From the IMG/VR virus record IMGVR_UViG_3300001533_001534, positions 1 through 30,712 of that record: DNA of 30,712 bases; one strand, written 5' to 3'. The position numbers and the translations under genes are program-made. Under the pieces are notes generated by a model, which searched no databases, had not been told where the DNA came from, and saw nothing but the letters and a program-made list of their open reading frames with translations. Source of the stretch: a virus. Shown in pieces: positions 2,825-30,712 of the stretch; the stretch's first letter is position 1, and the number at the start of each line of letters is the position of its first letter.

Positions 2825-3325
2825 ATGACCCCACGAACATTGACGAAATCATCCCAGGCCAAGCGCTGCGGGCGGCCTGCCAAGGCCAAGGAGAAGACCC
2901 TGGCAGACGTGCTGACAGATCCGTCCGAGAAGCTGGCGGCCGACGACGCGCGGGCAGCGGCAGCCCGGAAAGACGCGGTTATTTACGCCGAGATGCACCG
3001 CATCAAGGCTGCCAACGAGGTGCGCGAGGCCGAACGTATCAAACGCGAGACCGCTGCCATGGCGCCGATTGTACGAGCGGCTGAGGCCATCGCCAGACTT
3101 CCTCGCGCGTGCGGCGTATTTGCGACCAGGGGCAACCGCGTGCGGATTACAGTACCGGGCGGGAAACTTGTCGAGCTGTCGTATTCCGACGACGACAAGG
3201 AGCGACCGATCAAGTTGTACTCGGATTATTACGTTTACCAGGTTATGGCGCCGATGGACGTGAGTACCGCGCTTGATTGGCTTATGCGCACCGCGATTGA
3301 CTTCGGTGTAGGGTTGCCGGAATAA
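2825..3325 (+). CDS. Hypothetical protein, 166 aa, helical N-terminal half
   Basis: ATG 2825 follows ACAGGAGGAG. Residues 1-30 are basic (KRCGRPAKAKEK). Residues ~30-95 are Ala/Glu/Arg-rich and probably a long helix or coiled coil. The last ~70 residues look globular (ATRGNRVRITVPGGKLVELSY followed by SDDDKERPIK and an aromatic YSDYYVYQV block). There is no recognised family. The stop codon overlaps the next start as TAATG, so the two are coupled. Confidence 0.7.
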   Translation: MTPRTLTKSSQAKRCGRPAKAKEKTLADVLTDPSEKLAADDARAAAARKDAVIYAEMHRIKAANEVREAERIKRETAAMAPIVRAAEAIARLPRACGVFATRGNRVRITVPGGKLVELSYSDDDKERPIKLYSDYYVYQVMAPMDVSTALDWLMRTAIDFGVGLPE

Positions 3326-3495
3326 TGCGGTTCTACTGTAAACAGCACAAGATGCGCGTTCGCGACTTCGAGTCGTGTTCGTTGCGCGGCGCGCGTATTG
3401 TTCTGTGCAAAGTCAGGAAGCGGTACCCGTACGCTAAACTGTTCACTGAAGACGGGGCAGATGTATCTAAAAAGAAAAAAGGAGAATCATTATGA
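3325..3495 (+). CDS. Small basic Cys/His protein, 56 aa
   Basis: The start ATG 3325 shares a base with the preceding TAA, and the stop TGA 3493-3495 overlaps the next ATG. Both junctions indicate a real operon member. The product begins MRFYCKQHKMRVRDFESCSL, has a further Cys at position ~27, and ends lysine-rich (VSKKKKGESL). The C-x2-H...C...C spacing could bind zinc, but it is not a known finger pattern. The AAAAAGGAG inside its 3' end also serves as the next gene's ribosome site. Confidence 0.65.
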   Translation: MRFYCKQHKMRVRDFESCSLRGARIVLCKVRKRYPYAKLFTEDGADVSKKKKGESL

Positions 3496-3698
3496 GCGAG
3501 GAAGCAAAGACGGGGCGCACGTTGGGTATTATCAGTCTGATCGCATGGCTGCTGCCGATTGTCGGCATTCCGGTGGCGATCATAGGCATTTTCAAGTCAA
3601 GCGGAGGCAGAAGCCCCGGCGGGTTGTCGATGTCGATTATCGGGCTGGTGCTCGGCATTATCAACGCGATCGTAGGTACGATTATGGCGATGGCGTGA
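3492..3698 (+). CDS. Small two-helix membrane protein (DUF4190-like)
   Basis: The 68-aa product has a short charged N-terminus and two hydrophobic helices, ~11-33 (GIISLIAWLLPIVGIPVAII) and ~45-66 (SMSIIGLVLGIINAIVGTI). They are joined by a Gly/Ser loop with GGRSPGG. This arrangement is typical of DUF4190-type small inner-membrane proteins of unknown function. It is the only clear integral-membrane hairpin in this part of the window. A role in modifying the host envelope, or as a holin-like protein, is possible but not supported by nearby lysis genes. Confidence 0.65.
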   Translation: MSEEAKTGRTLGIISLIAWLLPIVGIPVAIIGIFKSSGGRSPGGLSMSIIGLVLGIINAIVGTIMAMA

Positions 3699-3814
3699 TG
3701 CCGAAGAAGAACCTGTAACCAACAAGAGTCGAGAAACCGGGAGCCGACGTTAAACAAAACGGCCCGGGGGTACGCCTACCACCAAACAGGGGCAAACTTT
3801 ACGAAAGGATAGAT

Positions 3815-4558
3815 ATGAGCGAGAACGCACAACAGAAAGCAAAGCGCCTTCGCGCCGAACTGGCGCTTGCCAAGAAGGAAAGCGAGGGCGCATCCCTGCA
3901 GGAAGCCACCGAGCTTCTCGAGGGCAGAGCGTATGTGTTCAACGGCTATGCGCACCACGCCGTGGCTGTGTCGATCGTGCTGTACAGCGGCGTGAAACGC
4001 GACGCCTTCGGCCTGCTTAGCGCAACGGAGCAGAGCCTGTGCGCCGTGAAATACGAAAAGCCGCTCGGGTACGAGATCCGCCGCAACAAGCTGCGGTACG
4101 CACGTACATTTGCCTCAGCGGGCGTGCTACTAATGGACAGCGTCGGCGAGATGCCAAAGTCTGAGTTCGAGAAGGCCTGGCGTGGTGCGGCCAATCTCGG
4201 CGCCTGCGTGTTCAGGTGGCTGTCTACCGTGTCGGCGGTTAATATCCGCAATACGGAGCCGTATGACCCGGGCAGCGTGCTGCGCGACACAGAAAGCGAG
4301 ATCGACGACATCGACATACCAGTGTTGCATCTCGAGCCGTGTGATTACCGAATGCTTCCGGCGCGGTTCCAGCTGCCGGGGCGCCGGTATATCCTTACGC
4401 CTGCCAGCATACAGGCGGGGCTGGCCGCGCTGCGCGACGAGGAACAGGGTCTGGCGCGGGGCAGTCACTTGTACCAGGTGTGCGACATGGGTTACGTCCC
4501 CGGCATGGCATGGCGGATCGCCAGACTTAGGGCGGCGTTGCAGGCGAAGCTGCCATGA
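3815..4558 (+). CDS. Hypothetical protein, 247 aa
   Basis: ATG 3815 follows a GAAAGGATAG site. The N-terminus is a predicted helix (QKAKRLRAELALAKKESEG). The middle is mixed alpha/beta (AYVFNGYAHHAVAVSIVLYS). The C-terminal third holds LPARFQLPGRRYILTPASIQ and ends in an Ala/Arg-rich helix. No motif or family is recognised and no membrane segment is visible. The stop overlaps the next gene as ATGA. Confidence 0.7.
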   Translation: MSENAQQKAKRLRAELALAKKESEGASLQEATELLEGRAYVFNGYAHHAVAVSIVLYSGVKRDAFGLLSATEQSLCAVKYEKPLGYEIRRNKLRYARTFASAGVLLMDSVGEMPKSEFEKAWRGAANLGACVFRWLSTVSAVNIRNTEPYDPGSVLRDTESEIDDIDIPVLHLEPCDYRMLPARFQLPGRRYILTPASIQAGLAALRDEEQGLARGSHLYQVCDMGYVPGMAWRIARLRAALQAKLP

Positions 4559-4952: not shown

Positions 4953-5040
4953 GTGGACGTAGTTCCGTATGGAGCGGAGGCAGGCTGTAAACCTGCTGTC
5001 TTAACAGGCCCGGGTGGTTCGATTCCACTTGTCCACACCA
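4953..5040 (+). tRNA. tRNA-Tyr (anticodon GTA)
   Basis: GTGGACG pairs with TGTCCAC over 7 bp (one G-U), followed by A and an encoded CCA (5038-5040). The anticodon stem GCAGG/CCTGC encloses CTGTAAA, giving anticodon GTA. A long variable arm fits a class II tRNA-Tyr. The T arm is GGTGG-TTCGATT-CCACT. The D arm is slightly irregular but has GG in its loop. This is the first gene of the RNA island. Confidence 0.88.
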
Positions 5041-5053
5041 TTATACGATTATC

Positions 5054-5123
5054 GCGGGTTGATGTAATTGGAAGCATACTAGGCTCATAACCTGGAAGTT
5101 AGGTTCGACTCCTAGCCCGCTAC
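5054..5123 (+). tRNA. tRNA-Met-like (anticodon CAT)
   Basis: The acceptor GCGGGTT can pair with AGCCCGC. The anticodon arm CTAGG-CTCATAA-CCTGG gives CAT, and the T loop is TTCGACT. The T-stem and acceptor cannot both be drawn at full length without sharing bases, and the variable region is only about three bases. It may therefore have lost a base or be slightly degenerate. No CCA is encoded. CAT could be elongator Met or a lysidine-modified Ile tRNA. Confidence 0.72.
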
Positions 5124-5205: not shown

Positions 5206-5589
5206 GGGAGTGATACAGCTTCGACGTGGCAGTCTGTAGTTTGTGTAGCGTGTAGAGGTTGATCGGTTGGCCTCTTTAAAAGCCGGTTAAAAAGTCAATT
5301 GATAACACAATTGCATTCCCGGGTGCCGCGGCTTATGCCGCGGCTGCTTAACAGCACCCGCGTGAGCCCGTGTCTGCAGCCCTAAGCTGCGGTGCTTGCG
5401 TAATCAACAGGGCAAGAACCTCCTGGCAGCCTGGAGTGAAAGCGGCTGGAAAGCTATCGTTACCCGCAAGGGTGCTTTCAGGATAACACGATTGCAGCCT
5501 GTCGACGGCGAAGATAATAGCCGACTACACACGTAGACACATAAACTGCTTTGTTGCGGACGCGGGGGCAGCACCCGCCACTTCCACCA
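5206..5589 (+). ncRNA. ssrA: Phage-encoded one-piece tmRNA
   Basis: tmRNA rescues stalled ribosomes by acting as tRNA-Ala and then as mRNA for a degradation tag. The 5' end GGGAGTG pairs with CACTTCC over 7 bp, followed by A and encoded CCA (5587-5589). The conserved TTCGACG follows the 5' end at ~5220-5226. GGTTGGCCTC with AAAGCCGG matches the conserved block before the tag of bacterial tmRNA. GCGGACGCGGG precedes the 3' end as in known tmRNAs. A tag frame ends GAAAYAAAA at TAA 5349-5351. It starts at TCA 5295 or ATT 5298; the exact resume codon is unclear. The region before 5500 is rich in pseudoknot-type repeats (GGGTGC with GCACCC). It is unusual in having GGCAGCA in the T loop. Confidence 0.85.
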
Positions 5590-11886: not shown

Positions 11887-13869
11887 ATGTCGACACAGGC
11901 CGCGATGGTGCCGTACGGGGTACAAGGCGAGTACAGCGGTGTTACCGCTTCAGGCGCCGGTAAGTTCCCCAACCCGTTCTTCGACATTGCCAGCGAGTAT
12001 ATGCCGACGGACCTGAAGCAGATCTTCGAGTTCGCCGAGTACATCTACATGAACAACGGCACCTACCGATCCGCGGCTCGACGCGTGTCGCGTTACTTCC
12101 TTACAGAAATCATACTGGACGGGGAGTCGGAAGACGAGCGCGAGGATTACGAGGATTTCATCAACAACCAGCTGCACCTACTGACGCAGCTGGCTGAGAT
12201 GGGCGACGAAATGCTCGTCTACGGTAACGTGTTCATATCCATCTACTTCCCGTTCGACAGGTTTCTGGTGTGCCCTGGCTGCGGTACCCATTACCACGTC
12301 GATACGGTAAGCTACAAGTGGGATTTCAAGGCGCTGACGTTTACAGCAGAGTGCGGCAAATGCGCATATAACGGTGTGTTTAAACGCAAGGACGTCCGGT
12401 CGCTCGATCGCAAGCGCGTCAAGCTGATACGTTGGAACCCGAAGCAGGTCAGGCTGCGGGTGCATGACATTTCCGGGCGCGTGGAATACTACTACGAGCC
12501 TGACGCCAACTTCGTCAACAAGCTTAAGGAAGGCAACCGGTTCTTCCTTAACGATACGCCCTGGAGCATGATCAAATGCTGCTCGCAGACCGGCGATAAC
12601 AAGACGCCGCTGTACAAGTTCGACGACGACCAGATCTACCATATGAAGGAAGCCACGCTGGCAGGTCTGCCAGTCAAGGGCTGGGGCATCCCGCCTGTGC
12701 TGCCTAACTTCAAACTGGCCTACTACATTCAGCTGCTGCGCCGTTACGACGAGGCTGTTGCGCTAGACTACATAGTGCCGTTCCGCGTACTTTACCCGGA
12801 CGGCGGCTCACCGGCCGGGGCGAACACCGACCCGCTCATGGGTATTTCCATGGACGTGTTCATGGGCCACATGCAGAATATGGTAAAGGCAAAGCGCAAG
12901 AACATGACCGACATCCAGATCGCGCCGTTCAAGGTCGGGTATCAAATGCTTGGCGGCGAGGCCAAAATGCTGACGCCGAAAGATTTGATCGCGTACGCGG
13001 TCGACGAGCTGCTTAACGCCGTCGGGTTTCCTGCGCAGCTGTACAAGGGTGATCTCACTATACAGGCGGCCCCGATGGCGCTGCGCCTGTTCGAGAAGAC
13101 CTGGAGCAGTCTCGTGGACGGCTACGCCGACGTCCTTAGCTGGACGCTTACCAAGGTGTCGAAGTACTTCGGCTGGGGCGATATGGACGGAAGTCTTGCC
13201 AGCGTCACCCTTGCCGACGATCTCGAGCGCAAGGCGCTCAACTTCCAGGCGGCTGCCGGTATGGATATTTCCAAGAACACGGCGTTCCGCCCGCTCGGTA
13301 TCGATTACATGGCCGAGCAGCGCAAGGTCATCGAGGAGCAGCGCGAAATCATGGAGCTCCAGCAGGAGGCCATGGAAGAGCAGGAAGCCGCGCAGCTGCA
13401 GCAAGGTGCAGGTGGCGGAGGAGCGCAGGGCGGGGCAGCCCCGGGCGGGCAGGCCGGCGCTACACCGGGCGACGTGCACGAGCAGGCCAAGGAGCTGGCA
13501 TACCAGCTGGTTGTCCAGACGCCGGAGACCGCGCGCCGTGGCGAGCTGATCAAGATCAAGCACTCCAATCCCACGTTGCACGCGCTCGTGTCGCAAGAGA
13601 TGGACAACCTGCGCCAGCAGATGGCAAGCCAGGGACGGCAGATGGTGCTGCAGCAGGAGCAGCAGAAAACAGCCGGGCACGTCCCGCGTGGCGTACGCGT
13701 AGCGGGCGCCGGCGAGATTCCAAGCCCGCTGGCCCTCGGCCTGCTGATTAACAGCCAGGCCATGGACATCGATCGCAAATACATGCGCAAGGTGGCCCGC
13801 GACATCGACATACCGGGAGTACGGTCCGCGTTCCGGTTCATCCGCGACAAGCAGCTCGGGCTGAGATAA
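11887..13869 (+). CDS. Phage portal-like protein with zinc-ribbon insertion, 660 aa
   Basis: A portal is the dodecameric ring at one capsid vertex through which DNA enters and leaves. The product has portal-like features: an early helical segment (FEFAEYIYMNNGTYRSAARR), a middle reading KGWGIPPVLPNFKLAYYIQ, and a stem-like part (LLNAVGFPAQLYKGDLTIQA). A helical, Gln/Glu-rich C-terminus (~480-560) has a Gly-rich break. Cys129, Cys132, Cys156 and Cys159 form a CxxC-x23-CxxC site, suggesting a zinc ribbon between strands. The length fits large tailed-phage portals. The family assignment is by pattern, so it is likely rather than certain. Confidence 0.7.
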   Translation: MSTQAAMVPYGVQGEYSGVTASGAGKFPNPFFDIASEYMPTDLKQIFEFAEYIYMNNGTYRSAARRVSRYFLTEIILDGESEDEREDYEDFINNQLHLLTQLAEMGDEMLVYGNVFISIYFPFDRFLVCPGCGTHYHVDTVSYKWDFKALTFTAECGKCAYNGVFKRKDVRSLDRKRVKLIRWNPKQVRLRVHDISGRVEYYYEPDANFVNKLKEGNRFFLNDTPWSMIKCCSQTGDNKTPLYKFDDDQIYHMKEATLAGLPVKGWGIPPVLPNFKLAYYIQLLRRYDEAVALDYIVPFRVLYPDGGSPAGANTDPLMGISMDVFMGHMQNMVKAKRKNMTDIQIAPFKVGYQMLGGEAKMLTPKDLIAYAVDELLNAVGFPAQLYKGDLTIQAAPMALRLFEKTWSSLVDGYADVLSWTLTKVSKYFGWGDMDGSLASVTLADDLERKALNFQAAAGMDISKNTAFRPLGIDYMAEQRKVIEEQREIMELQQEAMEEQEAAQLQQGAGGGGAQGGAAPGGQAGATPGDVHEQAKELAYQLVVQTPETARRGELIKIKHSNPTLHALVSQEMDNLRQQMASQGRQMVLQQEQQKTAGHVPRGVRVAGAGEIPSPLALGLLINSQAMDIDRKYMRKVARDIDIPGVRSAFRFIRDKQLGLR

Positions 13870-14022: not shown

Positions 14023-15198
14023 ATGAGCGACACCACCGCAGGTCCTGCCTTCCGGCTTAACAGCAGAAAACCGACACCGGGAGAGACATTACCGTATTCC
14101 GCGCGGCTTGCCGCTCTGGGCGTATTGCTTGGTTTGGCACCATCAGCGTACAGGCGGCTGCGGTACGGCAAGCGCGAAAGCGGTAATACGGCAGGGCGTA
14201 CCGCACTTGAAGCAGGCGCAGGCGCAGCGTTGCTTGGCGTGCTGCCCTGGCTGGCGCGAGGCAGGTTCGAGTACTCGGTTCCGGGTACGATACCACCTGC
14301 GCCGCGACCGGGCGAGACGCAGGACGAGTTCAATGATCGCACCCGGATAAAGAACTGGGGCGACGTCGATGACAGGCTGTTTATTCCCAGGGCCGACAAG
14401 GACGCGGCGTTTCGTAAAGTCGCACAAGCCGCCGCGCGTTATCGTAACCCGCGTAGACCTCCGCGGCGCACGATGTGGCAGGTCCATGCCGAGAATCAGG
14501 CGGCGCGCGAAAGCCGGCCTGTGCAAAGCGTGTACGACGAGGCGCTTAACAACATGAAGCAGGTACGCAACATGGGGATAGCCAGCGTAGGCGGCGGTGC
14601 GTTGGCGGGAGGCGCGTTGGCAGCCCCTGCGGCCGCCCTGATCGCGTTGAAGACTACCGGCAAGCTAGGATTAAAAGGCATGAACGCCATGTACAAGTTA
14701 TATGGTGCTGATCAGCTGCGGCAGGCCGCGGCTAATGACATGCAGGCGAGGCAGCTGGCCGGGTCGGGGCACCCGCAAGACGCGCTTATGGCGCACCATT
14801 TACGCTCGCAGGCCTGGGGTAACCTAGGTGCCGGTGCTATTGCCCTGACGCCGTACGGCATGGTCGCCAGAGGACTGGGTGCCATACCTGGCGTCACGCG
14901 GGCCGCGACTAAGCTGCCAGCTGCTGTACGCACCCTGTATCCGTACATCAGTCCTGCGCCATCGTATGCCGGTGTAGCTTTATCACAGCTGCACAGCCAG
15001 CGGCACGGCGACATAGCCGATAAGATCGACCGTATGCCAGAAGCCGAGTTCATGCGTAGAATGGTCGAGGCCGATCCGAACCGCAACAAGACGGCGCCGG
15101 CAGGGGCAGCCACGCAGCCCGCTGCTGTGCCGTATACGTCACAGCAGCTTGTCGGGCCGACTCTCGACAGCCTGGCGGCGCAGCGAGGAGGTAGATAG
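14023..15198 (+). CDS. Ala/Gly-rich hydrophobic protein, probably virion-associated, 391 aa
   Basis: CAGGAG precedes ATG 14023. A first hydrophobic stretch lies near residues 25-45 (YSARLAALGVLLGLAPSAYR). A longer one lies near 180-215 (SVGGGALAGGALAAPAAALI), and a third near 265-290 (GNLGAGAIALTPYGMVARGL). Charged helices separate them. Several Gly/Ala-rich helices in a long protein beside the portal suggest an inner-virion or DNA-ejection protein that meets the host membrane, but there is no family match. The stop is directly followed by the next ATG. Confidence 0.6.
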   Translation: MSDTTAGPAFRLNSRKPTPGETLPYSARLAALGVLLGLAPSAYRRLRYGKRESGNTAGRTALEAGAGAALLGVLPWLARGRFEYSVPGTIPPAPRPGETQDEFNDRTRIKNWGDVDDRLFIPRADKDAAFRKVAQAAARYRNPRRPPRRTMWQVHAENQAARESRPVQSVYDEALNNMKQVRNMGIASVGGGALAGGALAAPAAALIALKTTGKLGLKGMNAMYKLYGADQLRQAAANDMQARQLAGSGHPQDALMAHHLRSQAWGNLGAGAIALTPYGMVARGLGAIPGVTRAATKLPAAVRTLYPYISPAPSYAGVALSQLHSQRHGDIADKIDRMPEAEFMRRMVEADPNRNKTAPAGAATQPAAVPYTSQQLVGPTLDSLAAQRGGR

Positions 15199-15567
15199 AT
15201 GGCACGCTTCAAGAAACAGGCATACTCTGCTGTAATGAACCCTGGCTTGCGCGGCGTAACGCTTGGCGATCTGATTCGCGAAGTGCGTAACGATGTCGCT
15301 GTATCGGGTATGGATAAAACCCGCCTTTTGTCGCAGATCGATACCGCCACCGGCGGCGCGTCGCCTTCTACGCCGTTGTCGGCATTCGCCGCCGGTGGTA
15401 TAGGCGCACTCGTCGCTAACCTTGCTGGCAAGTATTTCGGACTGTCGACGACTGCGCGGGCATTGGTAACCGCGGCAGGTTTCGGGTTAGGCAATAAACT
15501 CAACAACGCGTTCGGACCGCCGGCACAGGAGCGCAGAAACACGCAAGGCTGGCAGTTCTACGGTTGA
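15199..15567 (+). CDS. Small hydrophobic protein, 122 aa
   Basis: ATG 15199 begins immediately after the preceding stop, with GCGAGGAGG upstream. The N-terminus is basic (MARFKKQAYSAVMNPG). A hydrophobic Ala/Gly-rich region spans ~60-102 (LSAFAAGGIGALVANLAG and ARALVTAAGFGLGN). The polar end is NAFGPPAQERRNTQGWQFYG. It shares its general style with the preceding and following genes. No family is recognised. Its stop lies within a TTGACA box. Confidence 0.6.
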   Translation: MARFKKQAYSAVMNPGLRGVTLGDLIREVRNDVAVSGMDKTRLLSQIDTATGGASPSTPLSAFAAGGIGALVANLAGKYFGLSTTARALVTAAGFGLGNKLNNAFGPPAQERRNTQGWQFYG

Positions 15568-17931: not shown

Positions 17932-20900
17932 ATGCCGACGCCTGTGTTGCCCGATAATATGCGCCCGTTTGACGACATGCGGACGGCGCGCAAGTGGCTT
18001 CGTGACGGTACTCTAGACGCGTTGTCTCGAAAGTTCCCTATCGAGGACGACGAGTACAGACTGGAGCTTGCCGATCTGTCTGTGGACGGGCCCGAGGAGT
18101 TCGGCCTGGCCCGGCAGAAGAAAGCCCTGATGCGCGACGACCAGCTTCGGATTCCCATAAAGGGAACCTGGCGCCTCGTCCACAAGCCGACGTCTGAAGT
18201 GCTCGACAGCAAGCAGACCACGGTAATGCACCTGCCCTACGTATCCGATCGCGGCACTATCATCAACGGTGGTAACGAGTACAGCTCGATCAGCCAAATG
18301 CGACTGCGCCCAGGTGTATACGCGCGGCGTAAGAAAAGCGGCGAAGTCGAGGCCATGTACAATATCAAGCCCGGCACAGGCAAGACGTTCCGCACGTACC
18401 TTGAGCCATCGACCGGCGTACTTAAGGCGCATATAGGCCAGGCAAACCTGCCTCTCTATCCGCTCATGAAAGTGATCGGCGCGACTGACGAGGAAATGCA
18501 GCAGGCATGGGGCCAGGATATCTGGTCGATCAACCGCGCGGCCAACGCCAAGGGCGTAATGCAGAAGTATTACGAGCGGCTGGTCCGAAACCGGTTGCCG
18601 GAAGCCTCCGAGCAGGACCAGGCCGACGCCGTGCGCGCTGCCATGGAAGCTGCTGTCATGGACCCTGACGTAAATGCCAGGACCCTGGGACTCGAGAAAG
18701 CCGACAAGCTCACGCCGGCGCTTATGCTCCGCTCTTCGGCCAAGCTGCTTGCCATCAACCGCGGTGACGAAACCGAGGACGACCGTGACAACCCGCAGTT
18801 CAGCGACGTCTACTCGATCGAGGACCACATTGCCGAGCGCGTCGAGAAAGACGCCGGACAGCTTGCCAGGAATCTGCTTTGGAAAGCACGCCGGGACAAA
18901 AGCCTGAAACGCGTCCACCCGGGCGCATTAACGCCTTACGTCCAGTCGTATCTACTCGGCTCCAGGCTGGCCATGCCGCTGGAGGAAACCAACCCGCTGT
19001 CGCTGCTCGAGCAGCTGAACCGTGTTACCAAGCTCGGCGAAGGCGGCATATCCTCCGCTGACAGCGTTACAGACGAGGCGCGCAACGTTAATCCGGGCCA
19101 GCTAGGGTTCCTGGATCCGATCATGGGACCTGAGTGCTATGACGGCGAGACAGAGGTTATGACCGCGCGAGGATGGACACGGTGGCCTGATGTTAATCCA
19201 GGCGACAAGTTCCTGTGTCTTATTGACGGCGAGCACGACTACTGCGACCCTGTACGCCTGGTATCGTCAAAGTACAACGGTTTCATGGTGTCGGTCATGG
19301 GCGCAGGTATCGACTTGCGTATAACCCCCGGCCACAGGTGCTACATACGACCCGTAGGGATAGCCGGGTTCGACTTTGTACAAGCCTACGCGCTGGAGTG
19401 TGAAGATACAGCGCCTTGCGAGTGGCTGTGCAGTGACGACGAGGGCTGTGTCGACGCACCGGTTACGCTCACGCGTCTGAACTACGGCAGCGAGAAGTAT
19501 ACCGGTACCGTGTATTGCGCCACTGTACCCGGTAGCCTGTTGCTTGTCCGCCGTAACGGAAGCAGACCGGTGTGGTCCGGCAACAGCGAGGCTATCGGTG
19601 TTGATACGCGCGTAGCCTACAAGACTTTCAAGGGGCGCGACAAGAAGCTGTACGGCGAGTTTCTTGATAAAGCCGGCAAGCCTGTTTTCATGACGCCTGG
19701 TGACGTGGCCGGCAAGACGATAGCATTCCCGGGACAGATGGCGACGCCCGGTGACATGGCGGTGGCGTCAGTCAACGGGGAAATCAAGGAAGTGCCCAAG
19801 GATAGCGTCGATATCTCTGTGCCGTCGTTTGCTCACATGATGAGCGCCAACGTCAATCTCAACCCGATGCCCACCGCGCTGCAGGCCGCCCGGCAGTTCT
19901 ACGGCGCGAAGTTCTGGGGCCAGTACATGCCGCAGACCCATGGCGAGGCGCCGCTGGTCGCATCGAAGATGCCGGACTCGGATCTGTCTACCGGACAGTA
20001 TTACGGGCGCCGTATCGGCGCGCTTACAACCAACGAGCCAGGCACGGTGACGCGCGTGACCGGCGACAAGGTCGTTGTCACGACAGAGTCGGGCGAGAAG
20101 AAGGAATACGATCTCGTTAAGGACTTCGCGTTTAATCGCATGACTGGCGTGTCGTACCGCTCCGCCGTCGAGAAAGGCCAGAAGCTGGCTGTCGGCGACG
20201 TCGTGGCGCGATCTAATTTCATTGACGACACAGACGAGATCCGGCTTGGCAAGAATCTGAATGTGGCGGTGATCCCGTATAGGGGTCACGGGATAGAAGA
20301 TGGTGTAGTGATCTCGGAGTCCGCCGCGCGCAAGATGGCCACTGACCGGCTATTCGGATTCGATAAGGAAGCACGCAACGGCGTCAAGCTGGGCCGCAAC
20401 AAGTACGCCTCGCTGTTCCCGGACCGGTTCTCTCAAACGCAGCTCGCTAATCTCGACGACGACGGCATTGTCAAGCCAGGTACTATCCTGAAAAAGGGCG
20501 ACCCGATCGTGCTGGCGACAGGGCCGAAGCTATTGACGGCAGAGGATGTCCAGCTAGGCAAGTTGCACAAGGCGCTTCGCAATGCGCACAAGGACATGGC
20601 CGAGACGTGGGAGCACGACTACGAAGGCCGCGTCACTGACGCTGTCCGGACCCGGTCCGGGGCCAAAGTCAACGTGGCCGCGTCCGTGCCTATGCAGGTT
20701 GCCGATAAGACCAGTTCACGGCAAGGCTTAAAAGGTGTTATCGCGTGCTACGACGACAAGACCGAGGTGTTCACAGATCACGGCTGGGTGCCGTGGACTA
20801 AGCTCACGATGGAGTACCGCTTGGCCTGTCTGATTGAAGGCAGGGCGTGCTTCCGTTACCCCGAGAAGCTGGTAGCCTACGACTACGAGGGAGAAATGAT

Positions 20901-23900
20901 ACATGCCGAGCACGAACAGCTTGACTACTGCGTGACTCCAGAACACCGGATGTGGTGCCGTATCGAGCCCTATAGGGGGTGTGAGGCGGAGTACCGCGTA
21001 CGTACCGCGGATGATGTCTACGGTAAATCGGTTGCCCACCTGTGTGCTGCCGAATATGACTGGGACCCGTCCTTAGGGCCGGAGTTCGACCTACGGGGTT
21101 ACGTGGACTACGACCCGGACCGCGAGCGTAAGAAGTCAGAGGTATTGTTTGACATCGTGGATGTCGGTGCCTTCCTTGGGTGGTACATCGCCGAGGGTAA
21201 CGTGGCGTCTTACGAGGGACACGGTACAGGCCGTGGCGGGAACCATGTAACGAGCTATAAGATACAGCTAGGTCAATCTAAGTCCGCCAACCCGGGCAAG
21301 TGCGACGAGATTGCCGCGTTACTGACCAGGATGGGTTTCGGGTGGCTGTATCATGGTAGCCAGTTTACGTTCAGCAGTAAGCCCTGGCACATGCTCTTAT
21401 CGCCCATGGGACTCTGCAAACAGAAGCGGATTCCGGGGTGGGCGTGGGGTATGCCGCGTCCGGCGCTGGAAGCTATGTTTCGGGCTTTGATTGACGGGGA
21501 TGGTAACAGGTCGCGTAGGCGTACTGTGCGCGACAGCCTAAGCTACACGAGTACGTCTTACGGCCTATGCGAGGATGTGGAGCGCCTCGCGACGTTACTC
21601 GGGTATAATGCTAAGATATCCCGGCACGCGCCTAATGGTTATGCTACGCAGTGGTTTGTGGCGTGCAAGGCGTCCTGCGAGTTGGGACAGACTAGCGCGC
21701 GCTTTGTACGCGAGCCCTACAGGGGCACTGTGTATTGCGCACAGGTGCCTGGCGGTCTTGTCTACGTACGCCGGGGAAAGCGCCCTATGTGGTGCGGGAA
21801 TAGTATCATCCCGGACGACAAGATGCCGCGTAATGCCGCTACCGACGAGCCGTATGACGTTCTGCTTAACCCGATGACTATTCTCAGCCGTGTCGCCGCC
21901 GCCGCCCTCATCGAGATGCAGCTCGGCAAAGTAGCCGCCAAGACCGGTAAGCGGTTTGTGCTGCCGCAAGAGGCTCCGGAGGAAGGCTGGAACGCCTGGG
22001 CGCTGCAGCAACTCAAGGACGCCAAAGTCGACGAGAAGGATGCTGTGTTTGATCCGGGGCTCGGCCGCGCGCTGCGTAAGCCGGTCGCCACAGGCAAGCT
22101 GTACATGTCAGCGTTCCACCATCTGGCTGAGAAGAAGCTGTCTGCCCGCGGCGGGTTTGAAGGCGGATTCACGCAAGACGAGTTGCCAGCCAAGGGCGGC
22201 GGCGACGCCGCGCAGGCCAAACGCATGAGCGGCATGGATCAGCTGCAGATGCTCAGCCACGGTGCCAAGGACGTCATGCGCGACGCGCTCGCCATACGGG
22301 GCGCCAAGAACGAGAACTACTTCAAGGCATTGCGTCTTGGCGTGCCGTTGCCGGAACCCGAGACACCATTCATCTACGATAAGTTCATGTCGCTGCTCAA
22401 GGCCGGCGGTATGAACATAGAGCAGAAGGGACACATACTAAGCCTGCTCCCGATGACGGATAATGATGTCGACAGCTTGTCTCGCGGACCCATACGTAGC
22501 GCGGCTATGCTCGACCGCAACATGATGCCGATTCCGGGCGGCTTGTTCGACCCGGGTCGCACCGGTGGCGCCGCCGGCAAAAACTGGTCGCACATCGAGT
22601 TGTCCGAACCGCTGCCGAACCCTGTGTTCGAGGAGCCGATACGACGGCTGCTCGGGCTGCGTGTAAAAGACTATGGGGATGTCATTGCCGGCCGCCAGGA
22701 GTTAAACGGCGCTACAGGTGGCGCGGCTATACGTGACGCGCTGGCGTCGATCGATATAGACGGAGAGATAGACAGGCAGAGAGCATTGGCCAAGTCACAG
22801 CGTGGCGCGAACCGTGATAACGCTATCAAGGCGTTAGGCTACCTCGCGTCTGCCAGGAAGACCGGCGTCAACCCGGCTAGCTGGGTAATGACCAAGGTGC
22901 CTGTATTGCCACCTGTTTTCCGCCCGGTCAGTAAAGCCGGTGATACGACGATAACAGCGGACTTGAACGACCTGTACCGCGACATGATCGAGGTAAACAA
23001 CGCGATCCCGGCGCTGCGGAAAGATTTGCCCGATAGCGCTATCGCCGATGAGCGCGAGGCACTTTACAGCTCTCTGAAGGCCGTCATAGGTCTAGGCGAC
23101 TCTATAACCCCGGAAGGTCGGTCGATGCGGCTCAAGGGCGCGATACGCCAGGTAGTCGGCGACAACCCCAAGCGCGGGCTCATGCAGTCCAAGGTGCTTA
23201 GCAAGCCGGTCGGCATGGTCGGTCGCGGCGTCATCTCGCCCGACCCTACTCTCGATATGGACCAGGTCGGCATACCCGAGGACGGCGCGTGGAAAGTGTA
23301 CAAGGATTTGGTCATCCGGCGGCTGGTGAAGAGCAACTACCCGGTACACAAGGCGCTCGAGATGATCGAACGCCGGGAGCCGCAGGCGAAGAGCGCGCTG
23401 CTCGACGAGATGGCGGCACGTCCGGTTATCATGGACCGCGCACCGACGTGGCACAAGTTCAACCTTATGGCGTTCCGGCCTGTGCTTACCGAAGGCCACT
23501 CGATCAAGATGCCACCGTTACCGCTTAAGGGCTTTACCGCGGATTTCGATGGAAATTGCTTAGATTTCGACACGGAAATTTATCTTGCAATATCAAAGTC
23601 TGCCTTGTATAGTACTCCTGAAGGTCGGGAATGGTTCTCGACTTTTCAACAGGAGAACACAGCTATGGCAACAGGTAACGAGACTGGCACTATTCGGGTA
23701 AATGACCGTACAGAGCACGTCATAAAGATCGGTAAATTCCCGAGAGTCAGACAACCTGTAAAGGATCGCAATGGGGCCGACGTTTACGCGGTGCCACCTG
23801 GCGTTTCTGTATTGAGTTACGATCACGTATCTGGCCGGTCGTGCTGGCTGCCGGTAGACAGGTTCACAGAGGAACACGGCTGCCCGTGTGTCGAGGTCAC

Positions 23901-25299
23901 AGCCGGGCGTAGCCGCAAGGCTGTAATAAGCGACAACGAAAGCCTAGCCGTGTTTGATCCGGCTACGGGTAACCTGGTAAAGCGTGCTCCGCGCGAGGCG
24001 CTGGGTTGCGCAGTGCCGGTAGTGTGGAAAGATGCTACTTACGGCGACGAGTTCGATTCGGATATCGGCTGGTGGTACGGCGTGCTGGTTGGCGATGGCT
24101 GGGTGCGGGATAACATGGTAGGCTACTCGAAGCTGGACGACGGTTGTCGCGCACGGTTTGAGAAGCTTGCCCGAAGCAAGATTCACGAGAACTTCACTTG
24201 CCACGAGTACCGCGATCAGGCGGGAGAGAACAAGCCCAAGTACGGCAAGTCTGTCAAAATACATTTAAACGGAAAAGACTTGCCTAGTCGCGTGTTCAAT
24301 ATCTACGACGGCGGTAAAGGTGCGCTGTACAAGAAGCTGCCTGACGAGCTTTTGTCGCGCGGTTCTGAACAGTGCCTGCTTGGTTTGTTCATGGGTTTGC
24401 TTGATGGCGATTCGAGCGTGACGTGGAATACGACGCTGGCCAGGCCCCGTCTTGCGCTGCGGTTCAATACGTCAAGCCCTGCGCTGGTGCGTACGTACGG
24501 GACGCTGTTCCGCAAGCTCGGTATACGCTACTCGGTGACAACTACGCCGGCTAAAGGCACAAGCGCCGAGTCGTACGTTGTGTGTCCGAGTGTCATCGAC
24601 ACCTACGTGCTCCTAAAGTCGACCGACCTTCGGCCTGTACGTGCAAATGTGGTTGAAGTTCTGGACGCGTTCATGGCTGTGGGGCCTGGCGCGGATGACA
24701 AGGATCTGATCCCCGTTGAACGCGCCTTTGCCGAGGACGTCGCGACTATCGCGTTACGCATGCAGAAGATGTCGTTATACACGATTCTTCGGCGTGCTGC
24801 GACCAAAACGCTGATTACGCGTCCGGTTGTCAACCAGGCACTTGAATTCGCCCGCGCGAACGTGCCCGACGCTGCGCACATTGAGACACTGGCTGCCCGT
24901 GCCGCGCGGAAAGACGTGTTCTGGGAAGCGATAACCGATGTCACCGACGCCGGAAAGCGTGACGTGTACGACTTCGAGGTCCCAGGAACCAAAGTGTTCG
25001 CGCTGCACAACGGCCTGGTGGTCTACGATACCATGAACTTCCACGTCCCGGTCGACGACAAGGCGGTAAAACAGGCGTACGAGAAAATGCTCCCGAGCAA
25101 GAACCTCTTCAGCCTGACTGACCTCGAATCTCCTAGACACGTACCGCAGCAGGAGCTATCACTGGGACTGTATCTTATGACACGCCCACCAAAGAAAGGT
25201 GTGCACGCCAAAGTGTTCAGGACGGCGGCGGAGGCGAAGCTCGCTTACCGGCGTGGCGAAATCGATGCAAATGACCCTGTAGAGATATTGGAGGCGTAG
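17932..25299 (+). CDS. Fused RNA polymerase beta/beta'(N) subunit with three inteins, 2455 codons
   Basis: Removing the three inteins leaves ~1462 residues that follow cellular RNA polymerase order. Beta: RGTIINGGNEYSSISQMRLR (INGTERVIVSQ region), then EARNVNPGQLGFLDPIMGPE (rifampicin-region equivalent), EAPLVASKM, IPYRGHGIEDGVVISE, DKTSSRQGLKG, DDKMP, and the C-terminal MSAFHHLAEKKLSARGG. Beta' follows without a break: LPVLPPVFRP, DLNDLYRDMIEVNN, GMVGRGVISPDP, the ADFDG metal-binding loop (residues ~1870-1874) and HVPVDD. It ends after LGLYLMTRPPKK, so bridge helix and trigger loop must come from another gene. Phage multisubunit polymerases are commonly split; this is a different arrangement, with a beta/beta' fusion. 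Position among virion genes suggests it may be packaged. Confidence 0.88.
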   Translation: MPTPVLPDNMRPFDDMRTARKWLRDGTLDALSRKFPIEDDEYRLELADLSVDGPEEFGLARQKKALMRDDQLRIPIKGTWRLVHKPTSEVLDSKQTTVMHLPYVSDRGTIINGGNEYSSISQMRLRPGVYARRKKSGEVEAMYNIKPGTGKTFRTYLEPSTGVLKAHIGQANLPLYPLMKVIGATDEEMQQAWGQDIWSINRAANAKGVMQKYYERLVRNRLPEASEQDQADAVRAAMEAAVMDPDVNARTLGLEKADKLTPALMLRSSAKLLAINRGDETEDDRDNPQFSDVYSIEDHIAERVEKDAGQLARNLLWKARRDKSLKRVHPGALTPYVQSYLLGSRLAMPLEETNPLSLLEQLNRVTKLGEGGISSADSVTDEARNVNPGQLGFLDPIMGPECYDGETEVMTARGWTRWPDVNPGDKFLCLIDGEHDYCDPVRLVSSKYNGFMVSVMGAGIDLRITPGHRCYIRPVGIAGFDFVQAYALECEDTAPCEWLCSDDEGCVDAPVTLTRLNYGSEKYTGTVYCATVPGSLLLVRRNGSRPVWSGNSEAIGVDTRVAYKTFKGRDKKLYGEFLDKAGKPVFMTPGDVAGKTIAFPGQMATPGDMAVASVNGEIKEVPKDSVDISVPSFAHMMSANVNLNPMPTALQAARQFYGAKFWGQYMPQTHGEAPLVASKMPDSDLSTGQYYGRRIGALTTNEPGTVTRVTGDKVVVTTESGEKKEYDLVKDFAFNRMTGVSYRSAVEKGQKLAVGDVVARSNFIDDTDEIRLGKNLNVAVIPYRGHGIEDGVVISESAARKMATDRLFGFDKEARNGVKLGRNKYASLFPDRFSQTQLANLDDDGIVKPGTILKKGDPIVLATGPKLLTAEDVQLGKLHKALRNAHKDMAETWEHDYEGRVTDAVRTRSGAKVNVAASVPMQVADKTSSRQGLKGVIACYDDKTEVFTDHGWVPWTKLTMEYRLACLIEGRACFRYPEKLVAYDYEGEMIHAEHEQLDYCVTPEHRMWCRIEPYRGCEAEYRVRTADDVYGKSVAHLCAAEYDWDPSLGPEFDLRGYVDYDPDRERKKSEVLFDIVDVGAFLGWYIAEGNVASYEGHGTGRGGNHVTSYKIQLGQSKSANPGKCDEIAALLTRMGFGWLYHGSQFTFSSKPWHMLLSPMGLCKQKRIPGWAWGMPRPALEAMFRALIDGDGNRSRRRTVRDSLSYTSTSYGLCEDVERLATLLGYNAKISRHAPNGYATQWFVACKASCELGQTSARFVREPYRGTVYCAQVPGGLVYVRRGKRPMWCGNSIIPDDKMPRNAATDEPYDVLLNPMTILSRVAAAALIEMQLGKVAAKTGKRFVLPQEAPEEGWNAWALQQLKDAKVDEKDAVFDPGLGRALRKPVATGKLYMSAFHHLAEKKLSARGGFEGGFTQDELPAKGGGDAAQAKRMSGMDQLQMLSHGAKDVMRDALAIRGAKNENYFKALRLGVPLPEPETPFIYDKFMSLLKAGGMNIEQKGHILSLLPMTDNDVDSLSRGPIRSAAMLDRNMMPIPGGLFDPGRTGGAAGKNWSHIELSEPLPNPVFEEPIRRLLGLRVKDYGDVIAGRQELNGATGGAAIRDALASIDIDGEIDRQRALAKSQRGANRDNAIKALGYLASARKTGVNPASWVMTKVPVLPPVFRPVSKAGDTTITADLNDLYRDMIEVNNAIPALRKDLPDSAIADEREALYSSLKAVIGLGDSITPEGRSMRLKGAIRQVVGDNPKRGLMQSKVLSKPVGMVGRGVISPDPTLDMDQVGIPEDGAWKVYKDLVIRRLVKSNYPVHKALEMIERREPQAKSALLDEMAARPVIMDRAPTWHKFNLMAFRPVLTEGHSIKMPPLPLKGFTADFDGNCLDFDTEIYLAISKSALYSTPEGREWFSTFQQENTAMATGNETGTIRVNDRTEHVIKIGKFPRVRQPVKDRNGADVYAVPPGVSVLSYDHVSGRSCWLPVDRFTEEHGCPCVEVTAGRSRKAVISDNESLAVFDPATGNLVKRAPREALGCAVPVVWKDATYGDEFDSDIGWWYGVLVGDGWVRDNMVGYSKLDDGCRARFEKLARSKIHENFTCHEYRDQAGENKPKYGKSVKIHLNGKDLPSRVFNIYDGGKGALYKKLPDELLSRGSEQCLLGLFMGLLDGDSSVTWNTTLARPRLALRFNTSSPALVRTYGTLFRKLGIRYSVTTTPAKGTSAESYVVCPSVIDTYVLLKSTDLRPVRANVVEVLDAFMAVGPGADDKDLIPVERAFAEDVATIALRMQKMSLYTILRRAATKTLITRPVVNQALEFARANVPDAAHIETLAARAARKDVFWEAITDVTDAGKRDVYDFEVPGTKVFALHNGLVVYDTMNFHVPVDDKAVKQAYEKMLPSKNLFSLTDLESPRHVPQQELSLGLYLMTRPPKKGVHAKVFRTAAEAKLAYRRGEIDANDPVEILEA
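19135..19584 (+). other. Intein 1 (mini-intein, residues 402-551) in the beta part
   Basis: Inteins excise themselves and join the flanking protein. This one starts at Cys402 (CYDGETEVMTARGW), has the TxxH motif in LRITPGHRCYIRP, and ends YCATVPGSLLLVRR...VWSGN before Ser552. At 150 residues it has only the splicing domain and no endonuclease. The usual penultimate His is Gly. It interrupts the conserved stretch DPIMGPE|SEAIGVD, equivalent to the ETPEG region of beta. Confidence 0.88.
20746..21801 (+). other. Intein 2 (residues 939-1290) with LAGLIDADG endonuclease
   Basis: It starts at Cys939 (CYDDKTEVFTDHGW), has TxxH in CVTPEHRMW, and ends VYVRRGKRPMWCGN before Ser1291. The inserted DOD-type homing endonuclease shows both helices, GAFLGWYIAEGNV and FRALIDGDGNR. 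It interrupts GLKGVIA|SIIPDDKMP, equivalent to the catalytic-lysine region (GRHGNKG...DMP) of beta. As in intein 1, the penultimate residue is Gly rather than His. Confidence 0.9.
23557..25029 (+). other. Intein 3 (residues 1876-2366) in the catalytic DFDGD loop
   Basis: It starts at Cys1876 (CLDFDTEIYLA) and its C-terminal block reads DVYDFEVPGTKVFALHNGLV...VYD before Thr2367. The DOD endonuclease helices are IGWWYGVLVGDGWV and LGLFMGLLDGDSSV. The last intein residue is Asp instead of Asn, and the residue before Cys1876 is Asn. The mature loop would therefore read ADFDGN-TMNFHVP rather than ADFDGD-TMNFHVP, unless the splice point differs. Confidence 0.85.
23585..23667 (+). promoter_or_regulatory. 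Internal promoter-like and ribosome-site-like sequence inside intein 3
   Basis: TTGCAA (23585-23590), a 17-base spacer and TATAGT (23608-23613) are followed by AGGAG (23651-23655) and an in-frame ATG at 23665 (Met1912). The stretch is clearly more AT-rich than its surroundings, and the protein encoded there (ALYSTPEGREWFSTFQQENT) reads like translated leader sequence. It could allow separate expression of the endonuclease part. Confidence 0.4.
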
Positions 25300-29200: not shown

Positions 29201-29580
29201 CCGCACTACCTTGGTAACACGGCCAGCGGTAGAGCGCTTGCTTCGAAGCCTGTGCAGGCGTTGGCAAGCGGTGTCCGCGGGGCCGGAAACGCGCTAGGAA
29301 ATATACACGCGGGCCTTCGCATGTACGCCGGACAGGCGAAAAATATCGCCAAGCAGGTCGTACCCTATGCCGCCGCAGGCGCGGCCAAGACCTACGGGAC
29401 TGCGGCGCTCACCGCTGCCAAGCCGGTCGCCGCAGCCGCCGGTAAATTTGTAGCCCTGCCTGCGGCAGCCGCCGCAACCGGAGCAGGTATCGGCTACGGC
29501 GCACGCCGTTTATCGAACCACCTTAGCGGCGGCCTGTACGACAAAGGCATGAACGCAGCCGGTGGCTGGCTGGCGGACCA
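26219..29580 (+). CDS. Large multidomain virion-type protein with two HExxH motifs (3' end lost at junction)
   Basis: The open frame runs to 29800 (1193 aa), but residues ~1116-1193 belong to IspE, so the phage protein is truncated here. It starts with two tandem tags (AYARGFDKAAAYRRGFEKAA); further copies occur at ~residue 381 (AAYARGFEKAG) and ~881 (KAYRRGFEKGA). The first module has FLHEMRHGLH with His204-Glu205 and His208, followed by EMEAEGGSYMATAR. The second has GHELAHAMYD with His551-Glu552 and His555. Both look like zincin metallopeptidase sites. The third part is Ala/Gly-rich and hydrophobic near its end. Met874 (28838) has GGAGGAGGT 7 bases upstream, so a shorter product may also be made. 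Confidence 0.65.
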
Positions 29581-29585
29581 GAGGA
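29560..29585. other. Junction between phage and bacterial DNA
   Basis: Left of here, codon use and the RGFEKAA-type protein are phage-like. From about R1122 onward the frame reads RNDLEAPALLNAPAIG, the C-terminal part of bacterial IspE, and the DNA becomes clearly more GC-rich. The exact crossover cannot be fixed because GWLADQ could belong to either side. No att-like repeat or integrase is visible. Confidence 0.75.
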
Positions 29586-29800
29586 ATGATCTGGAAGCCC
29601 CGGCCCTGTTGAATGCCCCCGCCATCGGCACGGCGCTGGACGCGGTGCGGGCCGAGGGTCAGGCGCGGCTGGTGCGGATGTCCGGCTCGGGCGCCACGGT
29701 GTTTGGCCTTTACGAGGATGCGGCCGCCGCAGCCCGGGCGGCAGAGGCGCTGGCCGGCGCAAATCCCCACTGGTGGGTACGGCAGGCGCATCTCGGCTGA
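29582..29800 (+). pseudogene. ispE: 3' fragment of ispE (4-diphosphocytidyl-2-C-methyl-D-erythritol kinase)
   Basis: IspE phosphorylates CDP-ME in the MEP isoprenoid pathway and is normally essential. About 72 C-terminal residues are present: NDLEAPALLNAPAIGTALDA, then the GHMP-kinase glycine motif RMSGSGATVFGLYEDA, and the closing ANPHWWVRQAHLG. The N-terminal ~three-quarters, including the ATP-binding loop, is replaced by phage sequence in the same frame. A CCCCT/AGGGG hairpin follows the stop. Confidence 0.85.
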
Positions 29801-29962
29801 TTTTCGCCACACCCCTGCCGCGTGAGGGGCCATTTCGGGGCATTTGCCGCCAAGCTGAAACCCCATCCAACATGAATGGATTGTCATGCTCGAGAGGTCA
29901 CTCTTGTGGAGTCTCACGTCGGTCCCTCCCTGAATCGGCGTAACCGAACAATGGAGTTTGCC

Positions 29963-30649
29963 ATGTTGAAGACAGCCATGATGTCGGCGGTTGCCACCGT
30001 CGCCCTGACCGCCGCCGGGCCGGCCCTGGCCCAGGAAACCACGCCGCCCACGACCCCGCCTGCCCAGACGATGCAGGCGACGCCGCAGGAGGCCGCTCAG
30101 GCTCCGTCTGTGACCGAGGTACTGCAGGCCGACGGACGCTTCACGATCCTGCTGGCCGCGCTGGAACAGGCCGAGCTGACCAGCGTCCTGGAAGACCAGG
30201 CCGCCGTGTCGATCTTTGCCCCCACCGATGACGCCTTTGCCGCCCTGCCCGAGGCGGACCGGGCGCGACTGATGGACCCGGCCAATATCGTCGAGCTGCG
30301 CGAGCTGCTGCTGTATCATGTGATCGCGGCCGATGTGGCCTCTGAACAGATCGTGGGGATGCGCGGGGGCGTTCCGACCGCTGCCGGCGCCGAGGTCCAG
30401 TTCGACGGCACCGGGGATGCCATCCGCGTCGATGCGGCCACGGTGGTCGAGGGCGATATCCAGACCGCCAATGGCGCCGTCTTTGCCATTGATGCCGTTC
30501 TGAACCCGGCAACGTCCCAGGCCGCCATGGGCGACGCGGAAGCGGTCCAGCCGACCGAACCGGTCGAGTCGACGCCGCCGACCCTTCCGGAAGACCCGGT
30601 CGATGAGGCGATGGAGCCGAATGCCCCCCTGCCGACGACTCCGGAATAG
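29963..30649 (+). CDS. Secreted fasciclin (FAS1) domain protein, 228 aa
   Basis: The frame is open from 29876, but GGAG lies six bases before ATG 29963, which also starts a good signal peptide (MLKTAMMSAVATVALTAAGP then ALAQE, likely cut after ALA). A short Pro/Thr linker leads to one FAS1 domain at ~55-190. It shows VTEVLQADGRFTILLAALEQ, the H1-box IFAPTDDAFAALP, the YHV motif (LLLYHVI), and the closing NGAVFAIDAVLNP. The C-terminus is an acidic Pro-rich tail. FAS1 proteins act in adhesion or at the cell surface; the exact role is unknown. Composition matches the ispE fragment, so it is bacterial. Confidence 0.9.
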   Translation: MLKTAMMSAVATVALTAAGPALAQETTPPTTPPAQTMQATPQEAAQAPSVTEVLQADGRFTILLAALEQAELTSVLEDQAAVSIFAPTDDAFAALPEADRARLMDPANIVELRELLLYHVIAADVASEQIVGMRGGVPTAAGAEVQFDGTGDAIRVDAATVVEGDIQTANGAVFAIDAVLNPATSQAAMGDAEAVQPTEPVESTPPTLPEDPVDEAMEPNAPLPTTPE

Positions 30650-30669
30650 GCCCCGCCGTCGGATCGATG

Positions 30670-30698
30670 AATGGCCCTGGCGTTGTCCGGGGCCATTT
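30670..30698 (+). terminator. Terminator-like hairpin after the fasciclin gene
   Basis: AATGGCCC (30670-30677) and GGGCCATT (30690-30697) form a perfect 8-bp stem with a 12-base loop shortly after the stop codon. It is followed by TGCGTTTG, only weakly T-rich. Confidence 0.5.
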
Positions 30699-30712
30699 GC
30701 GTTTGCCGCTTA

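Follow-up and report, generated by a model that had tools for sequence, protein, structure and literature searches.

The stretch of viral DNA analysed here (the window: a 30,712-base IMG/VR virus record, a tailed-phage fragment) encodes a complete one-piece tmRNA that, to judge from its sequence, is very probably functional. The sole uncommon part of this molecule is its elbow, which is of the two-piece type and had been overlooked in an earlier note on this DNA.

A full-length one-piece tmRNA gene

With cmscan, positions 5206-5589 of the plus strand matched the standard tmRNA model RF00023 over its full length (model positions 1-374) at 109.5 bits (E 3.4e-42), above the curated gathering score of 47 bits. 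The earlier note had placed a tmRNA at identical coordinates and had proposed Infernal with Rfam models as a check; the significant match bears it out. The permuted models RF01849 and RF04321 matched nowhere in the window. Nor does the gene have a permuted order with an intervening segment, as its 5' acceptor strand precedes the T-arm, at a distance of 353 nt. Since the acceptor strands pair at 7 of 7 positions in this arrangement and there is no match to a permuted model, a permuted gene mistaken for a one-piece gene is ruled out. The features of the gene and of the RNA array in which it lies are as follows.

4953-5040, plus strand: tRNA-Tyr (GTA), upstream in the RNA gene array, ordinary T-loop TTCGATT (ARAGORN, sequence)
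5052-5123, plus strand: tRNA-Met (CAT), ordinary T-loop TTCGACT (ARAGORN; RF00005)
5206-5589, plus strand: ssrA (tmRNA gene), one-piece order, 384 nt (RF00023, full length)
5206-5212, plus strand: acceptor stem, 5' strand GGGAGTG, 7/7 pairs (sequence)
5213-5225, plus strand: D-loop ATACAGCTTCGAC, with A5217-G5218 in place of the standard GG (alignment, sequence)
5254-5290, plus strand: pseudoknot PK1, AGAGG 5254-5258 / CCTCT 5271-5275 and ATCGGTT 5262-5268 / AGCCGGT 5281-5287 (stem list; hairpin aligned to RF00023)
5301-5351, plus strand: tag frame with resume codon GAT, DNTIAFPGAAAYAAAA and stop TAA at 5349-5351 (translation; resume position by model alignment)
5320-5360, plus strand: helix 5 over the tag end, CGGGTGC 5320-5326 / GCACCCG 5354-5360, with inner hairpin GCCGCGGC / GCCGCGGC (stem list)
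5360-5413, plus strand: PK2, GCGTGAGC 5360-5367 / GCTTGCGT 5394-5401, loop GCCCT 5379-5383 / AGGGC 5409-5413 (single-sequence pairing)
5420-5448, plus strand: PK3, CTCC 5420-5423 / GGAG 5433-5436 and CAGCC 5427-5431 / GGCTG 5444-5448 (sequence; second stem in stem list)
5449-5492, plus strand: PK4, GAAAGC 5449-5454 / GCTTTC 5474-5479 and ATCGT 5456-5460 / ACGAT 5488-5492 (stem list)
5562-5578, plus strand: T-arm, GCGGG - loop GGCAGCA (5567-5573) - CCCGC, a permuted-type loop and not TTCRANY (sequence)
5579-5589, plus strand: acceptor stem, 3' strand CACTTCC (5579-5585), and encoded ACCA (5586-5589) (sequence, Rfam alignment)

Several of these elements had already been recognised in the earlier note and stand: the acceptor stem with its encoded CCA, a TTCGACG element (TTCGAC at 5220-5225), a GGTTGGCCTC...AAAGCCGG block, which corresponds to PK1, and a tag frame ending in AYAAAA. 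The acceptor stem carries the G3-U70 alanine identity pair (G5208-U5583). The tag has 16 codons and reads DNTIAFPGAAAYAAAA followed by a stop, with the small hydrophobic end expected of a tag. Complementary stems for PK1-PK4 follow one another in the expected order, as pairing in one sequence without covariation, and the minimum free energy of the tmRNA strand lies 2.5 sd below that of shuffled sequences, in a type of folding that cannot show pseudoknots. A scan for a promoter or terminator gave no convincing site.

The canonical elbow, a T-loop UUCRANY with a GG D-loop, is absent; it is typical of the family and not formally defining. The window tmRNA instead has the permuted-type elbow, GGCRG with AG, a criterion drawn empirically from this analysis. 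ARAGORN, the other check proposed in the earlier note, missed the gene and reported only the tRNA-Tyr and tRNA-Met in front of it, apparently because the T-loop is GGCAGCA and not TTCRANY.

A coupled elbow and its distribution

Binding of SmpB requires contacts to both the D- and the T-loop (PMC3968760), and T-loop guanines have been described in two-part tmRNAs, two in the Reclinomonas mitochondrion and one in Caulobacter (PMC1168896). In the sequences collected here the two loops go together: a TTCRA T-loop was accompanied by a GG D-loop in all 19 cellular one-piece tmRNAs and in 43 of 48 viral ones among the matches listed, and GGCRG by AG in 119 of 121 viral permuted, 7 of 7 viral one-piece and, in a first sample, 29 of 29 alphaproteobacterial permuted tmRNAs; the T-loop types were mostly set by the search patterns, the D-loop was left free in all but one search, and the sequences are related by descent and are not independent events. 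A wider sample of alphaproteobacterial permuted tmRNAs had GGCRG with AG in 46 of 48, that is, in all 46 GGCRG cases; the other two, Brevundimonas among them, combine a TGCGAT T-loop with AG. The coupling is not absolute, as a possible viral one-piece tmRNA in contig L570 (minus strand, at about 3483 from the reverse-complement start) combines an AG D-loop with the T-loop TTCGATG.

Among 398 Pseudomonadota genomes, a strict pattern for a one-piece tmRNA with GGCRG matched none and a relaxed pattern matched once, in unrelated coding-like sequence; the one-piece form with TTCRA was found in 95 of the same genomes. That the elbow might be common to ordinary alphaproteobacterial one-piece tmRNAs is rejected, because the standard-form tmRNAs found in 4 of 289 genomes filed as Alphaproteobacteria (L161-L164) have TTC T-loops. 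These four genomes may be early-branching lineages or misbinned contigs.

In viral contigs, a narrow pattern (GACTANNCANGTAG with GGCAG) had no match, and a relaxed one yielded further one-piece GGCRG members. Three further viral groups score above the Rfam cut-off: L322/L343/L542, whose group also includes L292, L346 and L353 (86-91 bits for the members scored); L357, a 194-kb contig (89.6 bits); and L546/L547, contigs of 198 and 204 kb (101 and 96 bits). Two weaker candidates, L110 (38 bits) and L591, fall under the cut-off. The groups are 38-53% identical to one another and to the window gene, and their tags include ANNNNHFEQRLAA, ANDNATALVAQAA and VNNIRSAFAPRMSFAGMAA. Canonical one-piece tmRNAs are more numerous in viral contigs, with at least 120 pattern matches, and the listed ones with a recognisable 5' end number 48. 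T-arm look-alikes in four other viral contigs (L137, L142, L144 and L148) were rejected, having neither a one-piece nor a permuted tmRNA body by the criteria used. As separate observations, L144 and L148 contain tRNA genes assigned by ARAGORN to tRNA-Pyl (anticodon CTA), which may be amber suppressors, and L110 has a ROOL RNA at 3315-3881 (276.5 bits) alongside its weak tmRNA candidate and five tRNA genes.

In several unrelated viruses, both elbow loops have changed as a unit in a molecule that is otherwise standard. Neutral drift of the elbow, which would be compatible with a functional tmRNA and would say nothing of the host, strikes us as rather unlikely. Viral tmRNAs do diverge fast, as the low identity between groups attests, and L570 has a mixed elbow; however, the T-loop and D-loop changes co-occur in all viral groups found, just as in the permuted families, and both tRNAs of the same array retain ordinary T-loops.

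ARAGORN found none of eight one-piece GGCRG tmRNAs (five of the eight being one close group), whereas it detected all 20 canonical cellular tmRNAs and, of 30 permuted ones, 25. We infer that the T-loop is the cause of these misses. Two published phage surveys relied on ARAGORN (PMC9004378, PMC7162821), and since it missed all eight tested contigs, phage tmRNA has probably been under-counted.

Phage setting of the gene

That the tmRNA is phage-encoded, as the earlier note had it, is upheld by the surrounding genes. The portal protein (660 aa, 11887-13869) shares 31% identity with its counterpart in Salmonella phage Arash, and an ORF at 17932-25299 encodes a fused beta/beta-prime RNA polymerase related to the enzymes of large phages. 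This polymerase contains three intein-like insertions (at about aa 402-545, 939-1291 and 1878-2365), the second with a LAGLIDADG domain and the third inside the catalytic DFDG motif; all are missing in the relative described next. Among viral contigs the closest, L003/G001 (126.7 kb), has a portal 69% identical and shares with the window a region that runs from about 9.9 to 25.3 kb. Neither a tmRNA nor SmpB was found in it, so that the tmRNA counts as an accessory gene that varies between relatives. The search for an SmpB homologue that the earlier note had recommended likewise found none in the window, which covers only 30.7 kb of a larger virus, or in the checked contigs of the other one-piece GGCRG viruses (up to 204 kb). 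As SmpB is not encoded, that of the host is presumably used.

As to the host, the phages with named hosts that are nearest by portal protein infect gammaproteobacteria. Over its final 1.1 kb (29567-30712) the window is alphaproteobacterial, 83% identical to ispE-fasciclin DNA of a Brevundimonas MAG (L014), and GC climbs from 0.58 to 0.68 at this end. Here a phage ORF is joined, in frame, to the C-terminal part of ispE, and a fasciclin-domain gene comes next. The Brevundimonas-like end is most likely an assembly join rather than a host link; it may also be a provirus border. A Brevundimonas host with a matching elbow is rejected, the Brevundimonas T-loop being TGCGATT and not GGCRG.

Bacterial DNA at the contig end bears on another reading, by which the gene is a host tmRNA that was picked up through transduction or at an ssrA integration site and is carried passively, unused. 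tmRNA genes often serve as integration sites, and 72 of the 120 listed viral matches with a canonical T-loop lack a recognisable 5' end, as fragments at att sites would. Nevertheless, we regard capture as improbable: the gene is full length with every helix intact, its form is absent from the 398 Pseudomonadota genomes sampled, no integrase was recognised in the window, and 24 kb separate the gene from the bacterial stretch. Moreover, a nucleotide search of phage records returned no similar DNA beyond a single 41-base match, to the 3' end of an Erythrobacter phage tmRNA.

Proposed function and relation to known systems

As far as sequence can tell, the body of the molecule points to ordinary trans-translation in which the tag is specific to the phage. 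The RNA would be cut from a transcript that also holds the tRNA-Tyr and tRNA-Met, receive alanine from the host AlaRS, and be bound by host SmpB and EF-Tu. It would then enter ribosomes stalled on broken mRNA, which are expected to be common as host mRNA decays during infection. Translation would resume at GAU 5301, adding the tag (A)DNTIAFPGAAAYAAAA and releasing the ribosome, and the Ala-Ala end would direct the tagged product to host proteases. For the window tmRNA, the roles put forward in the earlier note, to keep ribosomes available or to send stalled products to proteases, are plausible. That the RNA is instead a decoy tying up SmpB to block host trans-translation is very improbable: such a role has been proposed for mycobacteriophage DS6A, whose tmRNA consists of the tRNA-like domain only and a short mimic of which inhibits host tmRNA in E. 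coli (PMC4131195, PMC11915505), and here too host SmpB would be the protein bound, as none is encoded, but a decoy would have no need of the complete mRNA-like part (16-codon tag, stop and four pseudoknots), and tag frames ending in Ala-Ala are kept in other viral members as well.

Elsewhere the elbow of the window tmRNA belongs to two-piece tmRNAs, and the most economical explanation would be a fit to a host lineage with two-piece tmRNA. We give about an even chance to such a fit of the phage RNA to the SmpB and ribosome machinery of that lineage (alphaproteobacteria or similar), its body having been kept single-chain and four-pseudoknot. More tentatively, single-chain tmRNAs with a two-piece elbow may form a class that recurs in viruses and is restricted to them; these RNAs would replace the two-piece tmRNA of the host, being fitted to the same SmpB and giving the phage a tag of its own, and would have been overlooked because the usual finder is blind to them. 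Ribosome rescue in infection is poorly understood, and phage tmRNAs represent a natural part-swapping experiment; with the elbow swapped, one can test if SmpB reads this part and if phages adapt it to two-piece hosts.

Phage tmRNAs as such are already known. The remark in the earlier note that few phages carry one agrees with the 2.3% (402 of 18,146 phage genomes) reported in PMC9004378, and both one- and two-piece phage forms are established (PMC4131195, PMC9004378, PMC7162821, PMC11915505). For a one-piece phage tmRNA with a two-piece elbow, we found no report in the open-licence literature. The window tmRNA resembles the standard one-piece form (RF00023) in gene order, the G3-U70 acceptor stem, CCA, PK1-PK4, the position of the tag frame in helix 5 and the GACTA...GTAG helix-2 strand; it differs in its T-loop (GGCAGCA and not TTCRANY), in its D-loop (AG and not GG) and in being invisible to ARAGORN. 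With the permuted tmRNAs (RF01849, RF01850 and RF04321) it shares the elbow, GGCRG T-loop and AG D-loop. Unlike in these, its 5' half precedes its 3' half and four pseudoknots are present, the alphaproteobacterial PK4 being reduced to a helix (PMC1168896).

Among phages, the mycobacteriophage Bxz1 group, Bacillus phage G, OM43 phage Melnitz and Erythrobacter phage vB_EliS-L02 likewise carry a tmRNA gene, often beside tRNAs (PMC4131195, PMC9004378). Melnitz and vB_EliS-L02 have the two-piece form (PMC9004378), whereas that of the window is one-piece. In the record of vB_EliS-L02 (L002), we observed the permuted alphaproteobacterial tmRNA at 14929-15337, unannotated, behind more than 30 tRNA genes. 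Finally, the 're-permuted' mitochondrial tmRNA of Jakoba libera also combines a one-piece gene with a two-piece-type lineage (PMC11915505). That molecule is mitochondrial, and mitochondrial tmRNAs appear to be without a tag frame (PMC11915505), whereas the window tmRNA has a tag; its four pseudoknots, moreover, argue against a simple re-joining of a two-piece gene.
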